Shown here: piece by piece, positions 33,545 to 43,734 of the stretch | Position numbering within the stretch: position 1 is the stretch's first letter | Layout: every line of letters starts with the position of its first letter | The notes under the pieces: generated by a model | Told to the model about the DNA's origin: nothing | The model's database searches: none | The model's input: only the letters and a program-made list of their open reading frames with translations | NCBI RefSeq assembly: GCF_004376845.1 | Contig: NZ_SNUW01000003.1 | Coordinates: 1-64,000, forward strand | Source: Psychromonas algarum | Lineage (GTDB): Bacteria > Pseudomonadota > Gammaproteobacteria > Enterobacterales > Psychromonadaceae | DNA: 64,000 nt | Direction: 5' to 3' | Translations under genes and position numbers: made by a program

Positions 33545-33916
33545 AATAATTTAATTCACAAAATGTAAAGTAGAAATTGACTGTAATATACACAGGTATC
33601 ATTCCCTATACAATCTACCGATACTTTTATTTGTATTATTTATGAACGGATTAAATTTATGTGACTGAACACTCATTTAAGATCATTAAGATCAATATGT
33701 AAGAGGCTGATAAGATTGAAAATGCATAGGAAAAGCAGATGATTAAAACTGATATAAAAGGGAAATAATGACCTTAATGATAAGGCCATTGGATATTAAT
33801 GAATACAGTGAATCCTCATCAATTAGGTTCTATAAAGCACTTTAGTAAAGTGCTCATTCTAACATAGTTAGAATAAGTGCCAATGGATATCCACCAGCAC
33901 TAGAGCCTATCAGTAG
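33545..33916. other. pfaR upstream region and left edge of mobile island
   Basis: About 370 bases without a gene. The part next to pfaR should hold its promoter, but I cannot assign the boxes. The distal part has two adjacent hairpins: a perfect 19-base palindrome AGCACTTTAGTAAAGTGCT (33836-33854) and ATTCTAAC-ATA-GTTAGAAT just after it. They lie downstream of the TIR gene and may terminate it, though the T tract is poor. The left boundary of the island should be in this interval. Confidence 0.5.
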
Positions 33917-35218
33917 TTAAGCATAAAGAGCGTTAGCATCACACTCTATTCCCGCCTCTTTAAACTCTTGTAATAGCTTCATTTCCCAACTTTCATTAGT
34001 GCCTATGTAAACAACACCTTGTATATCATTTTGTATTTCTACGCTCGGGTCTACAATCGCCGCAACTTTATCCATACCTAATCTAGCAATGAAATAACCA
34101 TGTTCAAAAACTACATTCTGTCTAGCTCTCTTGTTTAAAACTGGCTCTTCTAAAGCACCTATAGCTTTGGCTTTTCGACCTTCGTCACAAGGCGTATAGA
34201 GAATAATAGCATAGGCAACATCACCATTTTTTATCAACTTATTAATAATAGTGTTACCACCATTAGCTCTATCCATAAGTATTATCGGGTCTAGCCCTAG
34301 CCTACGGACAAAGTTATCTACTTTTAATCTAAGTACTTCGTCGTGACCATGAACAATAAACACTTTTTGTTTAGGAGCTTGTTGGGTATTGGGAGTATTC
34401 ATATATGGTTCCGTAGTCTTATAATGTATAGGTCGTTCTATTATTTGCGGTTGAGGTCGTATTTGCTCAGTTAAAAACTCTCTATCTAAAATACTAGAAT
34501 GAGGTTGCATGTGCGCGGTTAGTGCCGTTAGGTCTATAGCATTTGGTTGAGTTAGTGCGTTGCTCATTTCCATTGCTTTAGTCATTTCTGCTAATGCACT
34601 TGGTTGATATAGCTGTTTGGTCATTTCTGCTATTGCACTTGGTTGATATAGCTGTTTAGTCATTTCTGCTATTGCGCTTGGTTGGGCTAGCTGTTTGGTC
34701 ATTTCTGCTATTGCACTTGGTTGGGCTAGTGCTTTGCTCATCTCTATCGATTTGGTCATTTCTGCTATAGCGCCTGATTGAACTTGTAGCGCAGTCAAAT
34801 CTAAAGCACTTGCTTGAGCTGGATAATAATCAGTCAATGACTTTACTTTACTCGCTTTACTAGAGTCTTCAGGTGTTAGTTTATTGGCTATATCAATGCA
34901 TTTTAAACGAGCTTGTTCGCTATATCCTGACTCACCTGAGTAGTGGTTATTACTTTCTCTATCATCATCATATCGCTGAATCAAACCAAGCAACACACCA
35001 CCAACAGTTTGATTATCACTTATAGTCCAAAAGCCACGCATTTTATTAGCTTTAGAGCCTGACTTTTGACCTACAGTATAAGCTTCATCATAGATATCAA
35101 TATCATAGTCTTCAAAAAAACTACCAAGACTCTTATGTGTAAAGTCAAGTAAATGACCATCTTCCATTTGTAAGTAGCTTTCTAAAATGTTTTTATCTCT
35201 GTTGGTCAAATCTGCCAT
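33917..35218 (-). CDS. TIR-like nucleotide-binding protein, probable defence effector
   Basis: A 433-residue three-part protein. Residues about 290-425 form a PF10137-type TIR-like domain: KVFIVHGHDEVLRLKVDNFV, IILMDRANGGNTII, YAIILYTPCDEGRK, RARQNVVFEHGYFIARLG. Relatives include Pycsar/CBASS effectors that cleave NAD on sensing a cyclic nucleotide. Residues 1-130 are an N-terminal domain I cannot name firmly (LDFTHKSLGSFFEDYDIDI, GSKANKMRGFW). Between them (about 150-250) is a hinge of 13-residue repeats (QPSAIAEMTKQLY and variants). No cyclase gene is adjacent, so the trigger is unknown; a stand-alone anti-phage or abortive-infection role is inference from family and from its place in a mobile island. 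Confidence 0.85.
   Translation of the reverse strand: MADLTNRDKNILESYLQMEDGHLLDFTHKSLGSFFEDYDIDIYDEAYTVGQKSGSKANKMRGFWTISDNQTVGGVLLGLIQRYDDDRESNNHYSGESGYSEQARLKCIDIANKLTPEDSSKASKVKSLTDYYPAQASALDLTALQVQSGAIAEMTKSIEMSKALAQPSAIAEMTKQLAQPSAIAEMTKQLYQPSAIAEMTKQLYQPSALAEMTKAMEMSNALTQPNAIDLTALTAHMQPHSSILDREFLTEQIRPQPQIIERPIHYKTTEPYMNTPNTQQAPKQKVFIVHGHDEVLRLKVDNFVRRLGLDPIILMDRANGGNTIINKLIKNGDVAYAIILYTPCDEGRKAKAIGALEEPVLNKRARQNVVFEHGYFIARLGMDKVAAIVDPSVEIQNDIQGVVYIGTNESWEMKLLQEFKEAGIECDANALYA
34540..34795 (-). repeat. Intragenic repeats encoding the TIR-protein hinge
   Basis: At least three 39-base units, with two longer variant units at the flanks, encode QPSAIAEMTKQLY-like blocks. The outer copies carry insertions (EMSKAL, EMSNAL) and are themselves bracketed by DLTAL on each side. 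The near-identical DNA of the inner units suggests recent copy-number change. Confidence 0.9.
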
Positions 35219-35324
35219 AAAATCTCCTAGTTAGAGATTCATTTTACCACAAACAATCCTTAGCAATATAAAGTGTTAACAGTTTCATATTACGGAATAC
35301 CCAAGTTGATAGGTCAAACCAGAA

Positions 35325-35867
35325 TCAACCTTTCAATTTCTTACTGACTTTTGCAACAGTGCCTAAAGAATACCCCGTTTCTGCAACTGTCTTTCTAATG
35401 CTTAGGCCATTATTCAAATGTTGCTCAATCAGTGCATAGTCTACAGTTGGCTTTCTACCCTTATACACACCTTTTGCTTTAGCTTTTGCAATGCCTTCTT
35501 TCTGGCGCTCTAACATTATTTCACGTTCGAACTGATAAACAGACCCAAGTAGGTTCAACATTAATTGATTCATCGGGTTTTTCTTGTCCGCTGTAAAAGT
35601 CATAGCCTCTTTTCTGAACTCAACCGCAACACCCTTGCTATTAAAGAACTCGATAATATCAATCAAGTCTTTTATGTTACGTGCAAGACGGCTTATATCA
35701 TGAACCGTTACCGTATCGCCTAATCTCGCGAAATCTTTTAGATTATTAAGTTCTGCCCTATCTGTTGTTGAACCACTAACTTTATCAGTAAACGTTTTGT
35801 CCGCTTCAATAAGTTGTCTGTCGTCATTTTGTTCTACGGTTGAAACTCGAATATAAGATAAAAGCAT
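35325..35867 (-). CDS. Small serine recombinase (resolvase/invertase)
   Basis: A 180-residue serine recombinase of the Tn3 resolvase/Pin invertase class. The catalytic Ser is in LLSYIRVSTVEQNDDRQL (Ser9). Conserved Arg residues are in HDISRLARN and QFEREIMLERQKEGIAKAK, followed by the C-terminal helix-turn-helix GLSIRKTVAETGYSLGTVAKV. Such enzymes resolve plasmid multimers or invert DNA. Here a dimer-resolution or stability function for the island is plausible. No paired res or hix sites were identified, but the gap just downstream of the gene is short. Confidence 0.93.
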   Translation of the reverse strand: MLLSYIRVSTVEQNDDRQLIEADKTFTDKVSGSTTDRAELNNLKDFARLGDTVTVHDISRLARNIKDLIDIIEFFNSKGVAVEFRKEAMTFTADKKNPMNQLMLNLLGSVYQFEREIMLERQKEGIAKAKAKGVYKGRKPTVDYALIEQHLNNGLSIRKTVAETGYSLGTVAKVSKKLKG

Positions 35868-35996
35868 AATACACCTGTGTCATTTAGAATCTAGAGTCCA
35901 CTGTAACAGGCTGTTATACTAATTCATACCAACTCATAATGAACGCTTTTTACAGCTTTTTACCGTTACATTTAGACCGCGCTCTATTAGATACAA
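35868..35996. other. Upstream region of small recombinase, nothing further seen
   Basis: About 130 bases between the recombinase start and the first terminator of the duplicated segment. It contains the imperfect palindrome TAACAGGCTGTTA (35903-35915), which could be an operator or recombinase site, but this is not supported by a second copy. Confidence 0.3.
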
Positions 35997-36024
35997 AAAA
36001 GCCGTAACAAAATTTACGGCTTTT
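35997..36024. terminator. Terminator after truncated gene copy
   Basis: An 11-bp stem AAAAGCCGTAA/TTACGGCTTTT with a 6-base loop, working on both strands. Its stem sequence is nearly that of the terminator at 36451, so it is part of the same duplication. Confidence 0.75.
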
Positions 36025-36035
36025 AAATTCAAACT

Positions 36036-36143
36036 TTAAAACTTAATACCTAAAGTTGCCATAGCTGTTTGCGTATTTGTTCGACTAGCCATTAATAGCT
36101 CATCAATCGCGCTCGATGCAATAACACTTTCAAATAGAGATTC
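36036..36143 (-). pseudogene. Truncated duplicate of the 80-residue island protein
   Basis: Reading the minus strand gives ESLFESVIASSAIDELLMASRTNTQTAMATLGIKF ending at a stop (given here as two runs: ESLFESVIASSAIDELLM and ASRTNTQTAMATLGIKF). This matches the start of the intact gene at 36477 (DVLFESVTVSSAID) joined directly to its end (DELLMVSRTNAQIAMTTLGI). About 30 residues between two similar ID(D/E) points are deleted and no start codon is present. Confidence 0.8.
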
Positions 36144-36262
36144 CCCCCACCAGATTTTTTATGACCTACATCCACAAATTGCAACATGAGAATATTGCAG
36201 GCCCACGCTTGGTGTATAGTTTTATTTGATATATTGATTTTCATTTAATAAAGGATAATAGT
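36144..36262 (+). promoter_or_regulatory. Upstream region of YHYH micro-gene
   Basis: AT-rich leader; TTGATATATTGATTTTCAT and the ribosome site AAAGGATAATAGT precede the ATG at 36263. Promoter boxes cannot be fixed by eye. Confidence 0.35.
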
Positions 36263-36421
36263 ATGAATAGTTTGATTAAGGCAGTTGTGATTATGTTTTG
36301 TGTGGCAGTTGCTTCGCCAGCTTTTTCTCACGGCGGAGGCCTGAACAAACAAGGAGGTCATAATTGCTCTGAGAAATCTAAAAGCAAAGGACTGTGTTCG
36401 GGCTATCATAAGCATCGCTAA
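36263..36421 (+). CDS. Small exported YHYH-type protein
   Basis: A 52-residue protein. The N-terminus MNSLIKAVVIMFCVAVASPAFS is a clear Sec signal peptide with a predicted cut after PAFS. The mature peptide, about 30 residues, starts HGGGLNKQGGHNC and ends GLCSGYHKHR. This is the pattern of YHYH-domain proteins (Ser-His-Gly-Gly-Gly, then Asn/Gly/His/Cys, then a YHxH end), which are usually encoded by mobile or phage-linked DNA and have no proven role. The two Cys could form a disulfide and the His cluster could bind metal; both are inference. A GGATA ribosome site lies upstream and a terminator follows. Confidence 0.75.
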   Translation: MNSLIKAVVIMFCVAVASPAFSHGGGLNKQGGHNCSEKSKSKGLCSGYHKHR

Positions 36422-36450
36422 CAAATATAGCGCAGTTTCATTAGACGCAG

Positions 36451-36478
36451 AAAGCCGTGACAATAGTCACGGCTTTTT
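36451..36478. terminator. Bidirectional terminator between micro-gene and minus-strand operon
   Basis: An 11-bp perfect stem AAAGCCGTGAC/GTCACGGCTTT with loop AATA and a T tract. It overlaps the stop codon of the 80-residue minus-strand gene, so that operon ends exactly here. Confidence 0.85.
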
Positions 36479-36719
36479 AATTAATGCCCAAGGTTGTCAT
36501 AGCTATTTGCGCATTGGTTCGACTAACCATTAATAGCTCATCAATAGTCTTGTGCTTGCACTTCGCAATCAGTCGCGTTCGCTCAGCATCAGAACACAAC
36601 ACTTTCACGTAACAATGAAAGCTCACCATATAATCATCAATCGCGCTTGATACCGTGACGCTTTCAAACAGCACATCATCATCACTGGCTTTTTTAAAAT
36701 AATTTTCAATGTAATTCAT
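36477..36719 (-). CDS. Unknown 80-residue island protein (operon gene 6)
   Basis: An 80-residue acidic-to-neutral protein, not recognised. Visible stretches are VLFESVTVSSAIDDYMVSFH, CYVKVLCSDAERTRLIAKCK and TIDELLMVSRTNAQIAMTTL; three Cys occur. It is the last gene of a six-gene minus-strand operon; its ATG overlaps the stop of the gene before it. A truncated second copy of this gene lies 0.4 kb further on, which shows the locus has been rearranged. Confidence 0.6.
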   Translation of the reverse strand: MNYIENYFKKASDDDVLFESVTVSSAIDDYMVSFHCYVKVLCSDAERTRLIAKCKHKTIDELLMVSRTNAQIAMTTLGIN

Positions 36720-37135
36720 TATAAAAAACTCCTCAAATCATTTAGGTCATCGGTAGATGTACGACTGAGGTCAATCATATTGTTTTTCAATAATTCAGTG
36801 ATTGTCATTTTTTCACCCGTTACCGCCAGCTCTTGTTTATTCGGCTGCTCTTTTAGCATTTCATCAAGTTCCGACTTTACAACCATTTGCTCTATTTTAT
36901 GACTATGCTTCAAAGACTCAGAGAACTGGACCGCTAACAATTCTTTAAGCAAGTAAATTTGAATTTCTTGTTTAACTCCATTTGATAGATTGAAATTGAG
37001 TTTGTAATCATCAAGCAACTCCAGCGGAGACTTAGAGGTAATTAATGCTTTTATCGCATTGCGTCGCTCGGCATTACAAGTGCGAGCTTCCGCACTCTTG
37101 GCTTGAGCTTGTACTGCATTATCTTTAGTAAACAT
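36719..37135 (-). CDS. Unknown 138-residue island protein (operon gene 5)
   Basis: A 138-residue, largely helical, soluble protein. The N-terminus is QAQAKSAEARTCNAERRNAI, the centre KSPLELLDDYKLNFNLSNGV, and the C-terminal 35 residues (EKMTITELLKNNMIDLSRTS) look like a separate helical unit. I recognise no family. Its stop overlaps the next ATG, and it starts 8 bases after the gene upstream, so it is translated within the operon. Confidence 0.6.
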   Translation of the reverse strand: MFTKDNAVQAQAKSAEARTCNAERRNAIKALITSKSPLELLDDYKLNFNLSNGVKQEIQIYLLKELLAVQFSESLKHSHKIEQMVVKSELDEMLKEQPNKQELAVTGEKMTITELLKNNMIDLSRTSTDDLNDLRSFL

Positions 37136-37143
37136 ACCAACTC

Positions 37144-37392
37144 CTATGCTACAGACGTGCTACAGGTTTTCTGTAGCTCATAAAAAACTAAATCTTGCTT
37201 CCGTAATCGCTCGACCCTCAATGAATCTGTAGTTAACAAATCCGATTCGATTTGCTCTCTTAGCTCATCAGGTAAAAGCTTTAACAAACCATGTTTAAAA
37301 GTCGAATATTTTTCGACCCTGAAAATGCTATCGAAGATTTCATTTGATATCCCATACGCTTTAAATGCATTCTGATTTACTATGTATATCAT
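37144..37392 (-). CDS. Unknown 82-residue island protein (operon gene 4)
   Basis: A small soluble protein, not recognised. It begins MIYIVNQNAFKAYGISNEIF and contains FRVEKYSTFKHGLLKLLPDE; the pattern looks alpha/beta. The ATG overlaps the end of the 241-residue gene upstream by 4 bases, which indicates translational coupling. No toxin or antitoxin signature was seen. Confidence 0.6.
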   Translation of the reverse strand: MIYIVNQNAFKAYGISNEIFDSIFRVEKYSTFKHGLLKLLPDELREQIESDLLTTDSLRVERLRKQDLVFYELQKTCSTSVA

Positions 37393-38114
37393 CGTAAGCC
37401 TCCTGCAATTAATTGCTCCAGAGTAACTTTGTTGTCAACTATCCCGTAACTAACGTTAGTAGTGTTTTTAGTCGCGCTTGCAGTTTCAGTGATTTTTTCA
37501 GATTCAGATTCAAGCTCGTCCTCCAAACTCAATACCTCAACTAATCGCTTCAAAACAGACTCACTCAAGCTATCAATTACAATTTCTGCATGTACATCAA
37601 CTAACTCACCAGTCTCAACCAAATGAGCATCGTCTACAATATCAATTTCAAAATCTTCCGATTCTAAATTTAAATCAAGTCTTGTTGTGTAAACACCACC
37701 TGTTTCAGTAAAAGCAACCAGTCCAACTCTATGCTGATAATTCATTTTGTCTGTGTTGAAATATAATTCCATACCACTGTCATTATGTTTTTTTAGATAG
37801 CAAGATTCAGTTACGTAGTGCATTGATTCAGTTTCGCTAGGCTCAAAAACCCCCGATTCATTTATAGAATTGTCATTACTAATGAAGTAATTGCCACGAG
37901 CGTCCGCATTCACGTTTAATGAAAATCCAGTGCGAAATAGTGATTGATACTTTTTGCCAACTGAATTGTCATCAAGAAACAGAATTGATTTTCTTTCTTG
38001 ATTGAATCGGCCAATGACCTTATTCAAATCTCGTTTTTGAGCCGATTCCTTATCAGCAAATACGATTGATTTGTGAGACGGTTCAATTCCGCTAATTTCT
38101 TTTTCAATTTTCAT
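37389..38114 (-). CDS. Unknown 241-residue island protein (operon gene 3)
   Basis: The largest gene of the operon, 241 residues, not recognised. Residues about 1-60 are basic (SAQKRDLNKVIGRFNQERKS), about 65-165 are rich in beta-type residues (TGFSLNVNADARGNYFISND, RVGLVAFTETGGVYTTRLDL), and the rest is strongly acidic with a Ser/Thr/Glu-rich linker (EDELESESEKITETASATK) before a short C-terminal helix (VTLEQLIAGGLR). A beta-rich core with an acidic tail would fit a protein-interaction or single-strand-binding-type layout, but I can show no motif for that. It overlaps both neighbours by 4 bases. Confidence 0.6.
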   Translation of the reverse strand: MKIEKEISGIEPSHKSIVFADKESAQKRDLNKVIGRFNQERKSILFLDDNSVGKKYQSLFRTGFSLNVNADARGNYFISNDNSINESGVFEPSETESMHYVTESCYLKKHNDSGMELYFNTDKMNYQHRVGLVAFTETGGVYTTRLDLNLESEDFEIDIVDDAHLVETGELVDVHAEIVIDSLSESVLKRLVEVLSLEDELESESEKITETASATKNTTNVSYGIVDNKVTLEQLIAGGLR

Positions 38115-38383
38115 ATACTCAATTCCTCAGCTTGTACAACCTCAGTTTCTGCCAGACCAAATTCATCAACAAGCCTCGACACTTGCTCTAACATTTCTAC
38201 ACCACTTAGCTTTACGTACTGTTCTGTATTTGCGCATAACAAATACGTATCGGGTTCAATACTGTTATTGCCCACGACTACTAATGAACCCACTTTAGTT
38301 TTAATGACTATGAACCGACGTACCGCTTGTGCATGATATTCAATTTCTACACCGAACCGTTCTGATAATATTGATAACGACAT
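38111..38383 (-). CDS. Unknown 90-residue island protein (operon gene 2)
   Basis: A 90-residue soluble protein, not recognised. The N-terminal half is beta-like (VEIEYHAQAVRRFIVIKTKV, GSLVVVGNNS) and the C-terminal half a helix ending in an acidic tail (DEFGLAETEVVQAEELSI). Its ATG shares a base with the stop of the gene upstream, and its end overlaps the next start, so it is coupled on both sides. Confidence 0.6.
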   Translation of the reverse strand: MSLSILSERFGVEIEYHAQAVRRFIVIKTKVGSLVVVGNNSIEPDTYLLCANTEQYVKLSGVEMLEQVSRLVDEFGLAETEVVQAEELSI

Positions 38384-38703
38384 TATTTTGCCCCTAGACG
38401 TTCGAGCATGATTTTCGAGACCAATTTCTTAGTTGAATTTTTAGTTAACTGTGATTGAGTTTCATCTAGAAGATTATCGCTGATATCACGATACATTTTT
38501 GCAAGCGCCTTGTTATCAACTCCTAATTTGTTTGTCGTTTTGAATTCAAGTAGAAAACTTGCCTCGTTTCTTACTTTATTCTCTGCTAACTCAGCCATAA
38601 GATTTGAGAACGATTTAACAGCCTTTCGGCTCTCATTAATTTTGTCTTTATTTTTTCTGTAGTGCTTTAAGCTTGATAAGCGTGATTGCTCTTGATTTGT
38701 CAT
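38383..38703 (-). CDS. Unknown basic 106-residue island protein (operon gene 1)
   Basis: First gene of the minus-strand operon, facing the parB-like gene across about 330 non-coding bases. The protein is basic and helical: RLSSLKHYRKNKDKINESRK at the start, then FSNLMAELAENKVRNEASFL, and a Lys/Arg-rich end (TKKLVSKIMLERLG). It could bind nucleic acid, but no helix-turn-helix is clear. Being promoter-proximal and basic, it is the best candidate for a regulator of its own operon. Confidence 0.6.
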   Translation of the reverse strand: MTNQEQSRLSSLKHYRKNKDKINESRKAVKSFSNLMAELAENKVRNEASFLLEFKTTNKLGVDNKALAKMYRDISDNLLDETQSQLTKNSTKKLVSKIMLERLGAK

Positions 38704-38865
38704 TTATGCCCCTTTGTTACATCTATTTAGTGATGTAATCAGACGCTTGACAGTAGATATGAGTAACTGCATTAACCAAGAGTGAATCAGCGTTAGAATC
38801 GATAGTAGGTCGCATACGCCGTAGGCGTTGTTGCTTCGCAACTTAAGCATACAAACGTAATGATT

Positions 38866-38914
38866 TAGGTTCCAGATAGAGTGCTACTTATATAGTAACT
38901 TTAAGTGGAGCCTA
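38866..38914 (+). repeat. 49-bp repeat, left copy (inverted pair)
   Basis: Begins TAGGTTCCAGATAGAGTG and ends TTTAAGTGGAGCCTA, so its own ends are inverted repeats. It matches the copy at 40574-40622 in opposite orientation at 47 of 49 positions. Its centre CTACTTATATAGTA is nearly palindromic and TATA-rich, so it could be a promoter or an operator. Confidence 0.95.
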
Positions 38915-38990
38915 ATTAGTTGCTACGCAACAATGCCTGCGGCATATCATTTTATGAATTCACTTTAGACGCTTGCGTCACCGTGATACT

Positions 38991-39026
38991 CTCGTGAGAA
39001 AATACACGTACGTACTTTTTCACGAG
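38991..39026 (+). promoter_or_regulatory. Hairpin covering the parB ribosome site
   Basis: CTCGTGA at 38991-38997 pairs with TCACGAG at 39020-39026. The right arm contains the GAGG ribosome site, five bases before the parB ATG, so folding would hide it. The loop holds the palindrome GTACGTAC. Confidence 0.55.
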
Positions 39027-39031
39027 GCAAT

Positions 39032-39847
39032 ATGAAACAAGCATTTATAAACGTCAACAAACTACTTGTACCCAAGAATCGAGAGCGAAAAGTTAATATC
39101 GCTAAGGTTAAAGAATTAGCAAAATCAATTCATACGCTAGGGCTAATTAGCCCTATCGTGGTTAGTCGAGACAAAAGGACCGTCGTTGCTGGCGCGCATC
39201 GAGTCGAGGCATGCAAGCTTCTTGAAATAGAGGAAATAGAGGCGCGCATTATTCTATCCGAGCAAGATGCAAAGCTGGTTGAAATTGATGAAAATTTTAA
39301 ACGAAATGATTTAAAGCCAGCAGAGCGCAAAGACCACGCAGTTAAGCGCATGAGTGAAATTATATTGAGAATTCGTGAAACTGAGAGTGACGAGGTTATT
39401 CGAAAAGCTATCCAAGAGAATGTCGACAACAAGAATTTGAGCGCAGATGATTTCAAAGAGGCTCTTGATATTGCTACTGGCTGGGCTTCGTTAGAATCCA
39501 ATACCAAGCCAAAGGTAAAAGAGGCAGTAAAGAAAGCTGAGCGTTGCGTTAAAAAGCTGGCCGAAGACATTGTAATGGGTGAATTGGGGCTGTCGCGACG
39601 ATACCTCAGGGATGCGGTGAAAACAGAAAAGAAAGTTGCAGTTGGTGACACTCCTCGAATTTACTTTGATGACCCGAAGCCAGAAGAGATGGAGGCGCAG
39701 GTTAAATTATTAACTGGTACAGCAATGAAAAAGGTAAGGCGATTAGGTAAAGAATTGCGTGCAGAGTTAAATGAAATCAATAGCAGTGATGCTAAAGAAC
39801 TTGAGACGTTGATTGCTCAAATAGAAAGGATTGGGGGTTTAACATGA
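39032..39847 (+). CDS. ParB/Srx-fold protein
   Basis: A 271-residue protein with an N-terminal ParB/sulfiredoxin-type domain: the start FINVNKLLVPKNRERKVNIA, then IHTLGLISPIVVSRDKRTVV and the nucleotide-site motif AGAHRVEACKLL (G-x-H-R), followed by LKPAERKDHAVKRM. The remaining 150 residues are Lys-rich and helical, without the usual KorB/Spo0J dimer domain that I could identify. ParB-fold proteins act in plasmid partition, as CTPases, or as nucleases; which applies here is not settled, and no parA is adjacent. The stop overlaps the next start (ATGA), coupling it to the clamp-like gene. Confidence 0.85.
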   Translation: MKQAFINVNKLLVPKNRERKVNIAKVKELAKSIHTLGLISPIVVSRDKRTVVAGAHRVEACKLLEIEEIEARIILSEQDAKLVEIDENFKRNDLKPAERKDHAVKRMSEIILRIRETESDEVIRKAIQENVDNKNLSADDFKEALDIATGWASLESNTKPKVKEAVKKAERCVKKLAEDIVMGELGLSRRYLRDAVKTEKKVAVGDTPRIYFDDPKPEEMEAQVKLLTGTAMKKVRRLGKELRAELNEINSSDAKELETLIAQIERIGGLT

Positions 39848-40497
39848 TAATTACAGCAAGAATTCTTGATGTGTTGAAAGCGTTTAGCAAGATTAACATG
39901 AGCCTTTATATGGAAAAGAATGGCGTACTGGCAACCAAGAACTTGAACGGTGGCGTCTACGCCAAGGTCAATTTCCCTGTTCAAATAGATAACGATTACG
40001 GAATTTATGATTTGCCAGAATTCATTGACAGGTGCTACTCAGGCTCAGAGTTGCAAATCAACGGCACCGATATCACAATTGACCGGAGCACAACAGCTAA
40101 GCTACACAGCGCAGACAAAAGCGTGATTGTCAGCCCTAAACCCATAGAAATGAAGTTATTTGAGAATATATCACCTTCAATTTTTGAGATGAATATCAAC
40201 GGCGCACTGGTAAAGGAAATTAAAAAGCATAAACATCATAACCTTGTGATTAGCGCCAGTGCAAACACTGTTCGTGCGACCATTGTAGATTATGGGCTCA
40301 GAAATGAAGTAATGCGACTGGCAGAAGCACCGCGAACAACTCCCGATTTCTCAGTAAACGTATCGACAAACAATCTAATGCACCTGCCTAGTGAAGATAC
40401 TAGGGTTCGAATTACAAAAGTTGGAGTCATTCTTTTTGAATCAAAAAACATTCAGTCCATGGTGATTGCCCAAGCTTGCAAGCACCCTTACCTATAA
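39844..40497 (+). CDS. Sliding-clamp-like protein, phage T4 gp45 type
   Basis: A 217-residue protein that, compared from memory with T4 gp45 (228 residues), matches over the first domain: LKAFSKINMSLYMEKNGVL, then LNGGVYAKVNFPVQIDNDYG, IYDLPEFID, and the domain-end ADKSVIVSPKPIEMK. gp45 has LKNFATIN, NGTTYAEANI, IYDLNGFL and a VVAPNKPI end in the same order and spacing. Residues about 100-217 would be the second clamp domain (FEMNINGALVKEIKKH, FSVNVSTNNLMHLPSED). T4-type clamps are trimeric processivity factors that also activate late transcription. No polymerase or clamp-loader gene is present in the island. The gene overlaps parB by 4 bases. The call is by eye and should be tested by profile search. 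Confidence 0.6.
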   Translation: MIITARILDVLKAFSKINMSLYMEKNGVLATKNLNGGVYAKVNFPVQIDNDYGIYDLPEFIDRCYSGSELQINGTDITIDRSTTAKLHSADKSVIVSPKPIEMKLFENISPSIFEMNINGALVKEIKKHKHHNLVISASANTVRATIVDYGLRNEVMRLAEAPRTTPDFSVNVSTNNLMHLPSEDTRVRITKVGVILFESKNIQSMVIAQACKHPYL

Positions 40498-40509
40498 GTA
40501 ACGGCTTGC

Positions 40510-40747
40510 CGTCCGTGCGTAGCACGTTTACTTCTGAGTGTTTACGCTTGACGTGCTGTTTTCATAACGATTTTAGGTTCCACTTAAAGTTACTATATAA
40601 GTAGTACTCTATCTGGAACCTAATTTAGAGGCTTCGCCTCGCGCTACGCGCACAAACCCTAATTAGAAATGGTTCTGAATAATCCATTGAAGCGTAGCGT
40701 TAATTGACGACGCAGTCGTCCGTGCGTAGCACGTTTACTTCTAAGTG
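40510..40747. repeat. 31-bp direct repeat pair
   Basis: Copies at 40510-40540 and 40717-40747 differ at one of 31 positions. Each contains the hairpin CGTGC-gta-GCACG followed by TTTACTTCTRAGTG. Confidence 0.9.
40574..40622 (-). repeat. 49-bp repeat, right copy (inverted pair)
   Basis: Inverted copy of 38866-38914. It starts TAGGTTCCACTTAAAG and ends TCTATCTGGAACCTA, with perfect 9-base inverted ends. Together the two copies bracket exactly the parB and clamp-like genes with their leader. Confidence 0.95.
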
Positions 40748-40821
40748 ACGTGCTGTTTACGTTTGAGTCGCTCCGCTCCGCGCTACGCGCGCAAACTCTA
40801 ATTATAAATGGTTCTGAATAA
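40641..40821. repeat. 42-bp direct repeat pair
   Basis: Copies at about 40641-40682 and 40780-40821 differ at three of 42 positions. Each begins with the hairpin GCGCTACGCGC and ends AAATGGTTCTGAATAA. Confidence 0.9.
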
Positions 40822-40913
40822 CTCTATATTTTAATCTTTTGATTTTAAGAGTTCGGCCTATTCGCGTAATTAGTTTTATAGTGGCTCAACCGCCTGCTAT
40901 CACTGAGCCGAGA

Positions 40914-40955
40914 GGAATAGAGTGTCGTACTTTTGGAATAGAGTGTCGTACTTTT
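40914..40955 (+). repeat. Iteron-like 21-bp tandem repeat, two perfect copies
   Basis: Two identical, directly adjacent 21-base units (40914-40934, 40935-40955), each starting GGAATAGAGTGTCGTAC and ending TTTT. They are about 255 bases before the next gene. The spacing of two helical turns suits an initiator or repressor binding site. Confidence 0.9.
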
Positions 40956-41088
40956 TTTAACTCAATATAGCTAACTTGTGCGCTTGCTCAGTTTGTTTAC
41001 TACCTTCCGAACCCCTAGTAAAATAAGACTTCAATTAGCTACTAAATAGATTAGTAGTCACTTCCGACTACCTAATCTAAATTCTTCG

Positions 41089-41170
41089 ATATCATTAGAA
41101 TGCGTACTGCATTTGATACTTCCAGTGTCTACCGCGTAATAACGTCAATTATTACGCATTCTAATGATAT
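41089..41170 (+). promoter_or_regulatory. Nested, mutually exclusive hairpins upstream of gene 41210
   Basis: A perfect 18-base inverted repeat (ATATCATTAGAATGCGTA at 41089-41106 and its complement at 41153-41170) surrounds a second perfect stem GCGTAATAA/TTATTACGC (41134-41142, 41149-41157). The two stems share bases 41153-41157, so only one can form at a time. A third hairpin with a bulge (GATTAGTAGTC/GACTACCTAATC) lies at about 41049-41078. Confidence 0.85.
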
Positions 41171-41209
41171 TGACCTTGTTGACGCAGGGATGGAATCCAC
41201 TGGAATAAA

Positions 41210-41893
41210 ATGAACTATCAAATATTCGCGAACTTAACCATCACTCGCGGTCAAAATAAAAAACAAGAATGGAAATCGTTCTACACCGTAAAATCTCTAA
41301 AGCTCAGAAACAAAAAAACAAAACAATATATCGAACTATCTGACGAATCGTTAAACAAGCAAATGCGCGGCCTAAACTTATCTAAATCTCGCCGTGATAG
41401 CTTAAATAGACGTATCCGAAAAATGGCCAGTGATAACTTAATCGACTTATCTGAATTCAAAGTGCATCTGCAATCGAAAGGTAAAACTATATCAGTATGG
41501 TTCGTAAAGAAGACTCAGGAACTCCAAAATATCACTATCGAAACGCACGTAATCGAAGAACGTCAAAAATCCAAAAATAGAGAATATATAGTATTCCATG
41601 ACTACGAGACTTTAAAGGTGGACCAAATGAACGCTAAAACTAAATCGATTGTTTTTAACTTAAACACTTTAGAAAAAGAAGAAAATCGTGGCTGGAAGCT
41701 TGGTAAATTACGTAAAAACGCGACATTAGAAGAAAACACAGAGAAGACGAATGAAATCATTGAAACTGTTAATACATTAACTGATAAATCAGAACAAATG
41801 GAGTCCACATTACAGGAAATGGAAGCGCGTATACGCGCTGAGTTTGAAGAAAAAATGAATTTAATGAGAGCGCAGATGCAAGAAGGCATGTAA
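41210..41893 (+). CDS. Unknown island protein with C-terminal coiled coil, possible replication protein
   Basis: A 227-residue protein, not recognised. The first 110 residues are basic and could include a winged-helix: LSKSRRDSLNRRIRKMASDN followed by LIDLSEFKVHLQSKGKTISV and VWFVKK. The centre contains NREYIVFHDYETLKVD. Residues about 175-227 form a coiled coil (TNEIIETVNTLTDKSEQMES, RAEFEEKMNLMRAQMQEG). Its position behind iteron-like repeats and alternative hairpins would suit a plasmid initiator with a leader-controlled level, but I see no Rep family signature. There is no strong Shine-Dalgarno; CACTGGAATAAA precedes the ATG. A terminator follows. Confidence 0.7.
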   Translation: MNYQIFANLTITRGQNKKQEWKSFYTVKSLKLRNKKTKQYIELSDESLNKQMRGLNLSKSRRDSLNRRIRKMASDNLIDLSEFKVHLQSKGKTISVWFVKKTQELQNITIETHVIEERQKSKNREYIVFHDYETLKVDQMNAKTKSIVFNLNTLEKEENRGWKLGKLRKNATLEENTEKTNEIIETVNTLTDKSEQMESTLQEMEARIRAEFEEKMNLMRAQMQEGM

Positions 41894-42016
41894 TTGTTAA
41901 AATGCATTATTAAGCGGCATTTCCGCATACTAACTAAGACAAAGATTTTATGAACACTAAATATTTTTGTATTCACTGCTTATTGATACAACAGCATTAA
42001 CACCCATTATGCTTTA

Positions 42017-42050
42017 AAAAAGCCGATTCATTAATTTGAATCGGCTTTTT
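42017..42050. terminator. Bidirectional terminator
   Basis: A perfect 14-bp stem AAAAAGCCGATTCA/TGAATCGGCTTTTT with a 6-base loop, between the plus-strand gene at 41210 and the convergent recombinase gene. Confidence 0.9.
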
Positions 42051-42122
42051 CGTCTAGAGTTTTAAACTCTTTTGATAAATGCTTTATTCTGCTGACACGA
42101 TTTGCCGTATCAGACTTACGAA

Positions 42123-43634
42123 CTAATCGACATATTCAAAATCTTCAACACCAACAAGAAGGCTAGCAATCTCCTTTAAAAGCTTCTCGCTATCGTGCGT
42201 ACCTAATAACGTAGAGTTACCAACTCCGTGGCGTTGCTCTAATGTACGGATAATTCTATGACCATTTTTCTGTATGCAAGTAAGCTTAAAAACAGCTCCA
42301 GTTTTTCCATACTTACGTAGGAAAAGCACTTCAACTTTATCAATCAATTTTCTGAAAGTAGCGTTCTGCTCTTGGGCATCCTCTAATTCAAACACTTTTT
42401 TGTATTCAACTTCCACTTCTGTGCTTTGCTTTTCATCTTCATCTTTGCTTTCTTCAATAAGTCGCTCTAATCGACTTATCTCAGCATTAGAACGCCTCGC
42501 GGCTTTTAAGTCTTTATTGTTTCTCGCATCAGATAATAGCTCTTCTTCAAACTGTTGTTGCTCTATTAGCTCAACGGTTTTTGATATATATCCTTTCTTT
42601 ATTGTGTAGCTCATTCCAGAAAGCATTTGCTTCATTAACAAATCTGGTTCACGTATTAAATGGACGTTCTGACATCGCCCTTCTGTTGCACCGATGCATT
42701 TTCTATACATGACTTTTTTCCCATTATACGCACTTGTTCTTTGCACCATCCCAGACCCACAATCGGCACAGCGCATTATTCCTGTAAAAGCACTTTTCTT
42801 GGATATCCTGCCAGTTTTCTTCTGCTGTAGGCTCTGCCAACTTTCAAAGTTAGTGAGCGGAGGAAACATATCAGGCACTTTCTTTATCGGTTTCATTTCA
42901 CCGCTACCAGTCGTATCGTAATAGACTTTTGCACCATATAAAGCGTGGTTCTTAATGGTCTGCCTTACAATCGAACCACCCCAACCTTTTCCAGATAACC
43001 CCCCTGGTAGAAGCTTGTTCAACTCTTTTGCAATAGTCTGGTTGCTATTACCTTTCAGCTTACCCTCAAGCATTACACTGGCATATTCGGCTTTGTCGTT
43101 TAAAGTCGGTATACCACCAACTAACTTTATCCAGAAAGGCAACTTACCTTTTATTATGTTGTTCTCAACAAGTCGTGATTTGGCATTTTTTATTAGGTTA
43201 GACTTTCGCTCACTTTCTTGCATTGCGCGGTCAGCATCTAACAATAGTGGCAGAACAGGCCCAAGATTTGTCATTGTTGTTTTGTTGTAGATTTGCCCAG
43301 TGTCGAGCATTACGATATTTACATTTAAGTCGACCAAGTCATTTACAAGGTCCAAAGCGTGTTGGTATCCTCGTCTAGTTAGTCGGTCTGTATTTTCAAA
43401 TAAGACGTAATCAACTGACACTCTATGGCTTTCTATTGCGTCAACTAAATCAACTAAAGCCGGACGCTTACCACCTTCTTTAAAAGCAGACACGCCTAAA
43501 TCATTGAATGTCTCTTCTATAAGTTCAACATCGTTGTACTTGCACCATTCCTTGGCTTTTTGAGTTTGTCGTAGGACTGAATCGCCCTGTTCTTGTTTGA
43601 GAGTAGAAAATCGTATGTAGAGTAAAGCTTTCAT
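42123..43634 (-). CDS. Large serine recombinase, probable integrase of the island
   Basis: A 503-residue large serine recombinase. The catalytic domain starts MKALLYIRFSTLKQEQGDS (Ser10) with DYVLFENTDRLTRRGYQHAL. A recombinase domain follows (SVMLEGKLKGNSNQTIAKEL, GGSIVRQTIKNHALYGAKVY), then a zinc-ribbon (FTGIMRCADCGSGMV, YRKCIGATEGRCQ) and a coiled coil at about 385-430 (ISRLERLIEESKDEDEKQST). Such enzymes integrate phages and mobile islands between short attP/attB sites. It lies at the right end of the island, as integrases usually do. No separate excision factor was identified. Confidence 0.92.
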   Translation of the reverse strand: MKALLYIRFSTLKQEQGDSVLRQTQKAKEWCKYNDVELIEETFNDLGVSAFKEGGKRPALVDLVDAIESHRVSVDYVLFENTDRLTRRGYQHALDLVNDLVDLNVNIVMLDTGQIYNKTTMTNLGPVLPLLLDADRAMQESERKSNLIKNAKSRLVENNIIKGKLPFWIKLVGGIPTLNDKAEYASVMLEGKLKGNSNQTIAKELNKLLPGGLSGKGWGGSIVRQTIKNHALYGAKVYYDTTGSGEMKPIKKVPDMFPPLTNFESWQSLQQKKTGRISKKSAFTGIMRCADCGSGMVQRTSAYNGKKVMYRKCIGATEGRCQNVHLIREPDLLMKQMLSGMSYTIKKGYISKTVELIEQQQFEEELLSDARNNKDLKAARRSNAEISRLERLIEESKDEDEKQSTEVEVEYKKVFELEDAQEQNATFRKLIDKVEVLFLRKYGKTGAVFKLTCIQKNGHRIIRTLEQRHGVGNSTLLGTHDSEKLLKEIASLLVGVEDFEYVD

Positions 43635-43690
43635 ATTGGCAACCTAATCAGTGGTATATTCGAAAAGCACATTAGCGAAGCCAGTTTACT

Positions 43691-43720
43691 AAAACCTAGC
43701 ACTGCATATGCAGGGCTAGG
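43691..43720 (-). terminator. Terminator of ppiC
   Basis: The outer stem CCTAGC/GCTAGG encloses a perfect palindrome CTGCATATGCAG; on the minus strand it is followed by TTTT. It lies just past the ppiC stop, so host sequence should extend at least to here. Confidence 0.7.
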
Positions 43721-43734
43721 TCAAGAAAACTATA

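Follow-up and report, generated by a model that had tools for sequence, protein, structure and literature searches.

The PLE satellites of the Vibrio cholerae phage ICP1 rely on helper products for their replication (PMC7145576), are excised by a large serine recombinase under the direction of a helper protein (PMC6002521), and remodel the capsids of the helper (PMC10945586). Satellites also interfere with their helper phages (PMC7145576, PMC10945586). The core replisome of ICP1 is not T4-like (PMC7145576). The PICMI of marine Vibrionaceae are small satellites of virulent phages, and they carry defence genes (PMC10803314). In the open-access literature, we found no paper on satellites of T4-like (Straboviridae) phages or on a satellite-encoded sliding clamp. 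To our knowledge, no PLE encodes a sliding clamp or a vertex protein. The locus described here lies in the window, that is, the whole stretch of 64,000 nucleotides of Psychromonas algarum DNA that was analysed, and it carries a strongly diverged clamp of the T4 gp45 type (Table 1).

The limits of the island were placed where nucleotide homology to relatives ends. Seven neighbourhoods from the same genus were compared by blastn and tblastn; fadD-ppi is kept, pfaR-pfaA is kept in two, and the interval between ppi and pfaR differs. The initial annotation had placed the clamp gene on a mobile island. The large serine recombinase and the differing DNA at the same site in relatives agree with this, and it is very probable that the whole interval is such an island. 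A search for an att core in the window island was negative, and neither its own att sites nor an empty site was found. As a separate observation, the ppi-pfaR stretch is a variable site in the genus, its gene content differing between species (window, L151, L154 and L156).

Table 1. Positions of the features discussed (window coordinates unless a locus is named).
Feature	Position	Strand	Basis or context
Island, ~10.1 kb	33646-43732		between pfaR-like regulator of PUFA-synthase cluster and PpiC-like gene
TIR-domain protein (PDC-S35 / CAP12-like TIR)	33917-35218	-	PF10137 E 3.8e-32; PADLOC PDC-S35 E 2.5e-64
Small serine recombinase (DNA invertase type), 180 aa	35325-35867	-	PF00239 E 6e-32
Small operon gene, 80 aa, last of operon	36477-36719	-	ORF list
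Small operon gene, 138 aa, family-conserved	36719-37135	-	phmmer E 1e-4 (L162), 5e-4 (L166)
Small operon gene, 82 aa	37144-37392	-	103-aa sister gene in same place; position only
Hallmark protein of island family, 241 aa	37389-38114	-	homologues in G208, G307
Small operon gene, 90 aa	38111-38383	-	91-aa sister gene in same place; position and length only
Small operon gene, 106 aa, family-conserved	38383-38703	-	phmmer E 5e-5 (L166), 8e-5 (L162)
51-nt repeat, left copy, imperfect palindrome, inverted relative to right copy	38865-38915	+	hairpin z -3.8
ParB-fold gene, 271 aa	39032-39847	+	PF02195 ParB_N E 4.5e-7 (above cut-off); phrog_3264 E 7e-20
T4 gp45-like sliding clamp, strongly diverged, 217 aa, ATG start	39844-40497	+	phrog_223; PDB sequence and fold matches
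51-nt repeat, right copy, imperfect palindrome	40573-40623	-	hairpin z -3.7
21-nt unit GGAATAGAGTGTCGTACTTTT, present as two identical tandem copies, resembling iterons or operators	40914-40955	+	repeat search
Inverted repeat, 21-bp arms, 46-nt loop, just upstream of coiled-coil gene	41086-41173		folding z -6.2
227-aa protein, N-terminal domain and C-terminal coiled coil	41210-41893	+	positional counterpart of L162:9819-10562
Large serine recombinase (phage-type integrase), 503 aa	42123-43634	-	PF00239, PF07508, PF13408; phrog_95 E 4.8e-57
gp24-like capsid vertex protein of sister element, 379 aa	L162:10725-11864 (G208:C18)		after coiled-coil gene; PF07068 E 2.5e-64

Judging from its profile matches, the TIR-domain protein is probably anti-phage defence cargo. 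Its gene contains 39-nt tandem repeats at 34538-34789 (peptide repeat around AEMTKQLYQPSAI), which possibly encode a linker of variable length ahead of the TIR domain. Six small genes make up a tight operon on the minus strand (36477-38703). Parts of the last of these genes recur in degenerate form at 36043-36137, with stretches that are 88% and 82% identical, and this similarity suggests a decayed tandem duplication. When ten island proteins were searched against Pfam and PHROGs, no loader subunit and no polymerase was found, which agrees with the earlier remark that neither lies beside the clamp. No replication initiator was detected by profile in the window island or in the sister island described below, and the island has no Rfam RNA. 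Strings of the T4 late promoter (TATAAATA) do not occur in the island, and in the whole window they are at chance level.

The clamp ORF had been annotated as a gp45-type protein and not as a copy of the host dnaN. A PHROG profile search matched residues 1-210 to positions 1-217 of the 222 in phrog_223 ('DNA polymerase processivity factor'), with E 6.4e-24. Using phmmer against the PDB, domain 1 matched gp45 of RB69 (1b77, E 6.6e-8) and of T4 (1czd, E 3.2e-5); the significant sequence matches in the PDB are phage gp45 only, from RB69, T4 and one further phage clamp. The best tblastn matches among 1,291 phage records have approximately 28-30% identity across 96-99% of the protein. An AlphaFold2 model of the single chain, computed from an alignment with 35 gp45 proteins taken from viral and MAG contigs, has a pLDDT of 89.9 and a pTM of 0.84. 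The four PDB folds closest to this model are all T4/RB69 gp45 (E 5e-16 to 1e-13, TM 0.82-0.83), followed by PCNA and beta clamps, so the predicted fold is that of a sliding clamp, as anticipated. DnaN and other cellular beta clamps have about 370 aa and three domains, and the island protein has 217 aa and a two-domain gp45-like fold. The sequence, profile and fold matches therefore show the original identification to be right, and we regard it as practically certain that the ORF is a gp45 homologue. A match to a gp45 profile had been named as one check on the assignment; it holds for PHROG 223, which is significant over the whole protein, but not for Pfam, where no match appears up to E 1 (PF02916 and PF09116 included). 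There is no NCBIfam match either, and routine annotation would therefore overlook the gene. Since the protein is too diverged for Pfam, our claim is that of a divergent homologue and not of a canonical gp45.

The island clamp resembles T4 gp45 (phrog_223; 1czd, 1b77) in its length, its two-domain clamp fold and the order of its secondary structure, and it has the N-terminal motifs (IN near residue 17, IYDL and PKPI). In contrast, identity is only ~20-28%, and most of the conserved residues of domain 2 are gone. At positions that are at least 80% conserved in other clamps, the island protein retains 15 of 28 in domain 1 and 5 of 17 in domain 2; the lowest retention among 35 phage clamps is 68% and 59%, respectively. 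The proline at the domain linker is retained, and the conserved C-terminal glutamate is lost. The net charge is +3, whereas the median of other clamps is -7, and the helix stretch of domain 2 is more basic than in other clamps. In a gp45 tree, the protein groups on the Straboviridae (T4) side with support of 99/99. Its branch, at 3.96 changes per column, is far longer than the median (0.36), and its exact place is unsure because of this length. Taken together, sequence and model indicate that the clamp fold is kept but the protein is re-shaped. Owing to this divergence, chiefly in domain 2, ordinary clamp function is not to be assumed; the lost residues and the charge of +3 are as compatible with altered partners or with a poison as with a working clamp.

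The gene is rare. Among 395 genomes of the order, the phrog_223 profile finds no real gp45 besides it, and 369 genomes of the class likewise yielded no other. The order gave one more match (G207), rejected as false because it is an efflux-adaptor protein. We found no relative by tblastn in 72,556 plasmids, and single-query searches with the clamp returned none from viral contigs or genome contigs; single-query searches of viral contigs with the ParB-fold protein and the hallmark protein returned none either. The usual setting of gp45 is different. Across 89 gp45 loci from MAG and viral contigs, gp44, gp62, RegA, gp43, gp46 or gp47 lies nearby wherever the contig reaches. One locus initially taken for a lone clamp (L047) proved to be an ordinary T4-like contig. 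We know of no T4-like phage that occurs as a prophage. Because of this, and because the other loci have replication genes alongside, it is abnormal for gp45 to stand by itself on an island with an integrase. The island clamp differs from T4 gp45 in being away from gp44/62/43/RegA and coupled to a ParB-fold gene.

This coupling, proposed at the outset, is seen as an ATGA overlap between the stop of the ParB-fold ORF and the start of the clamp. The ParB-fold protein retains the GAHR and ENFKRNDL boxes. Its matches in 369 genomes are all weak, of the kind that any ordinary ParB protein gives, and those in the 72,556 plasmids are likewise weak. The two 51-nt inverted repeats enclose exactly the ParB-clamp pair; they are 96% complementary and are the only two copies in the genome. 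We considered them as transposon ends and rejected this, as there are just two genome copies and no transposase. A relationship to 89-nt repeats of the sister (shared ACTTAAAGT...TACTATA) was also rejected: it reaches p ~0.025 repeat against repeat, post hoc, and is non-significant against the whole locus. Short GC-rich palindromic units of the REP-like kind recur in a cluster between the clamp and the hairpin (40510-40540, 40717-40747, 40624-40682 and 40763-40821). At the place equivalent to the 21-bp-arm hairpin, the sister island has a hairpin with 22-bp arms (L160), unrelated in sequence and with a folding z of -6.2. The protein encoded after the hairpin has no Pfam, PHROG or NCBIfam match, and it is significantly similar to its sister counterpart nowhere but in the coiled coil. 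We infer that it is a candidate origin- or hairpin-binding protein.

The hallmark 241-aa protein and its operon are found in 3 of 395 genomes of the order: the window genome, G208 from the same genus, and G307 from another family. The G208 homologue is 34% identical (E 1.1e-17). Searches of phages and of viral contigs, the latter by single query and by alignment, gave no match to the hallmark protein, and its structure predicted from the three sequences has a pLDDT of 36. The island family has three known members, that of G307 being partial, on a 7.8-kb contig ending near the invertase. The sister in G208 is complete, with the conserved small genes, the invertase, the hairpin before the coiled-coil gene, and a large serine recombinase. 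It is an insertion of 14.83 kb, one end of which adjoins the recombinase, and it lies within an M32 carboxypeptidase gene, which it interrupts in the 5' part. The intact empty site is present in G188 (L178, G188:C13, reverse strand, ~1850-1857), where the flanks join with an 8-bp overlap. The large serine recombinases of the window and sister islands are 25% identical. A DNA-invertase-type recombinase occurs in both related islands (E 3e-13 to L160:14358-14981). A 760-aa TPR plus DUF2971-like protein (phrog_1762) is 69% identical between two elements (L162:776-3058 and L166:4911-7190) and is probably defence cargo. Both the window island and the sister element have defence-like cargo at one end.

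The slot that holds the ParB-clamp pair in the window island is occupied in the sister by two unrelated genes, with no clamp. The pair was found nowhere else, and a recurrence of ParB-clamp pairs on other islands, a point raised in the initial annotation, is unsupported. The sister has a different T4-type gene, coding for the gp24-like capsid vertex protein. This protein is closest to T4 gp24 (PDB 1yue, E 1.7e-43) and has 41-46% identity over 99-100% to gp24 of Aeromonas T4-like phages. It is like T4 gp24 (PF07068) in extending, with its 379 aa, over the whole domain, and unlike it in that no other T4 head gene accompanies it on the integrated element. Of 336 genomes of the order, one alone matched the PF07068 (Gp23/Gp24 family) profile, and it did so through the gene in the sister element. 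Chance would hardly place independent T4-type genes in two members of one rare family.

Satellites commonly depend on and modify the replication and capsid functions of their helpers, and this family carries one part of each; the best reading is therefore a satellite of T4-like phages. That the window island is such a satellite in integrated form, and its clamp a helper-derived replication part that has been re-specialised, has in our estimate a probability of about 0.5. It is likely that the family as a whole comprises undescribed satellites of T4-like phages. The odds that the clamp serves satellite replication or transcription, rather than only opposing the helper, fall just short of even. 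The initial annotation had offered two functional guesses, recruitment of a polymerase and a decoy against a T4-like phage. Both are possible, and the gp24-like gene of the sister moves them from speculation to a testable model of a satellite of T4-like phages.

Infection by a T4-like phage would be followed by excision through the large serine recombinase; we know of no T4-like helper phage of this host. The ParB-fold protein, the hairpin-linked protein or both may then mark a satellite origin made up of the 51-nt inverted repeats, the hairpin and the 21-nt repeats. The satellite clamp would be loaded onto satellite DNA, probably by the gp44/62 loader of the helper, and the loaded clamp would bring to it the polymerase of the helper, perhaps along with the gp33/gp55 machinery for late transcription. 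From the carriage of a gp45 homologue we infer that the helper replisome may be captured in this way. As a result, the satellite would be amplified and the helper diverted. The gp24-like protein of the sister would act later, at capsid assembly. In T4, late transcription is linked to replication through the clamp; a satellite encoding its own clamp could therefore govern the two processes with a single protein. For the family, we tentatively suggest, at somewhat less than even odds, parasitism of T4-like phages by modified copies of the helper's machine parts: here a private clamp marking satellite DNA together with ParB, the latter at origin sites in the inverted repeats, for the helper replisome and late transcription, and elsewhere a private vertex protein redirecting head assembly. 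The hallmark operon is a sequence handle for finding further members, each perhaps with a different T4-type part.

The same genes could act against the phage. The diverged clamp might be a poison or decoy that mixes into the gp45 trimers of an infecting T4-like phage, occupies gp44/62 or captures gp43, gp33 or gp55, while the gp24-like protein of the sister poisons capsid vertices; the islands would then be chiefly defence elements, or satellites with a purely anti-helper clamp. The strong divergence centred on domain 2, the reversed net charge and the long branch speak for this, as do the lack of a loader or polymerase, the defence genes in both elements, and the interference with helpers already known from satellites (PMC7145576, PMC10945586). 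However, the predicted clamp fold is intact, its domain-2 helix stretch is more basic and not less, and the coupling to ParB, together with the repeats on either side, points to a function on the island's own DNA. A dominant-negative subunit should also retain the subunit interface, which the single-chain model does not allow us to judge. We consider a poison or decoy rather unlikely, though it is the foremost of the alternatives.

Two readings that need no phage infection, or no function, are much less probable. The ATGA coupling, and the 51-nt repeats that lie exactly around the pair and nowhere else in the genome, would suit a plasmid-like replication and partition module, in which ParB and clamp use host enzymes on an excised circle and the repeats bound a small replicon or a transposable cassette. 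Against such a module, no replication initiator was detected by profile and there is no ParA, the 72,556 plasmids gave no clamp relative and only weak ParB matches, and the gp24 of the sister is left unexplained. Moreover, the loaders of gp45-type clamps are of the gp44/62 type, and we know of no precedent for a host clamp loader acting on one. We find this reading improbable. We give equally little credence to a fossil, that is, a T4-like phage gene that strayed into a mobile island and has lost its function. The very long branch and the lost conserved residues would be expected of one, but the ORF is intact, translationally coupled and modelled with a confident fold, and the sister element independently retains an intact T4-type gene. 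An integrated satellite of T4-like phages is our preferred reading.

Like satellites in general, both islands carry an integrase, here a large serine recombinase, site-specific integration being evident from the empty site for the sister only, and the phage replication or virion genes found in them are limited to the gp45-like one (window) or the gp24-like one (sister). The island differs from P4, PICI and cf-PICI, as no tyrosine integrase, AlpA/Stl-type regulator, Pri-Rep, or terminase and capsid set of its own was found among the proteins searched. With PICMI it shares small size and defence genes. PICMI are, however, defined by their integrase, AlpA, primase and position beside fis; AlpA, primase and fis were not seen here, and the window island lies between pfaR and ppi. 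Compared with PLE, no RepA_N initiator was matched among the island proteins searched and no sequence relation was found. What the window island has in common with PLE is a satellite size, a large serine recombinase, and many small ORFs of unknown function.
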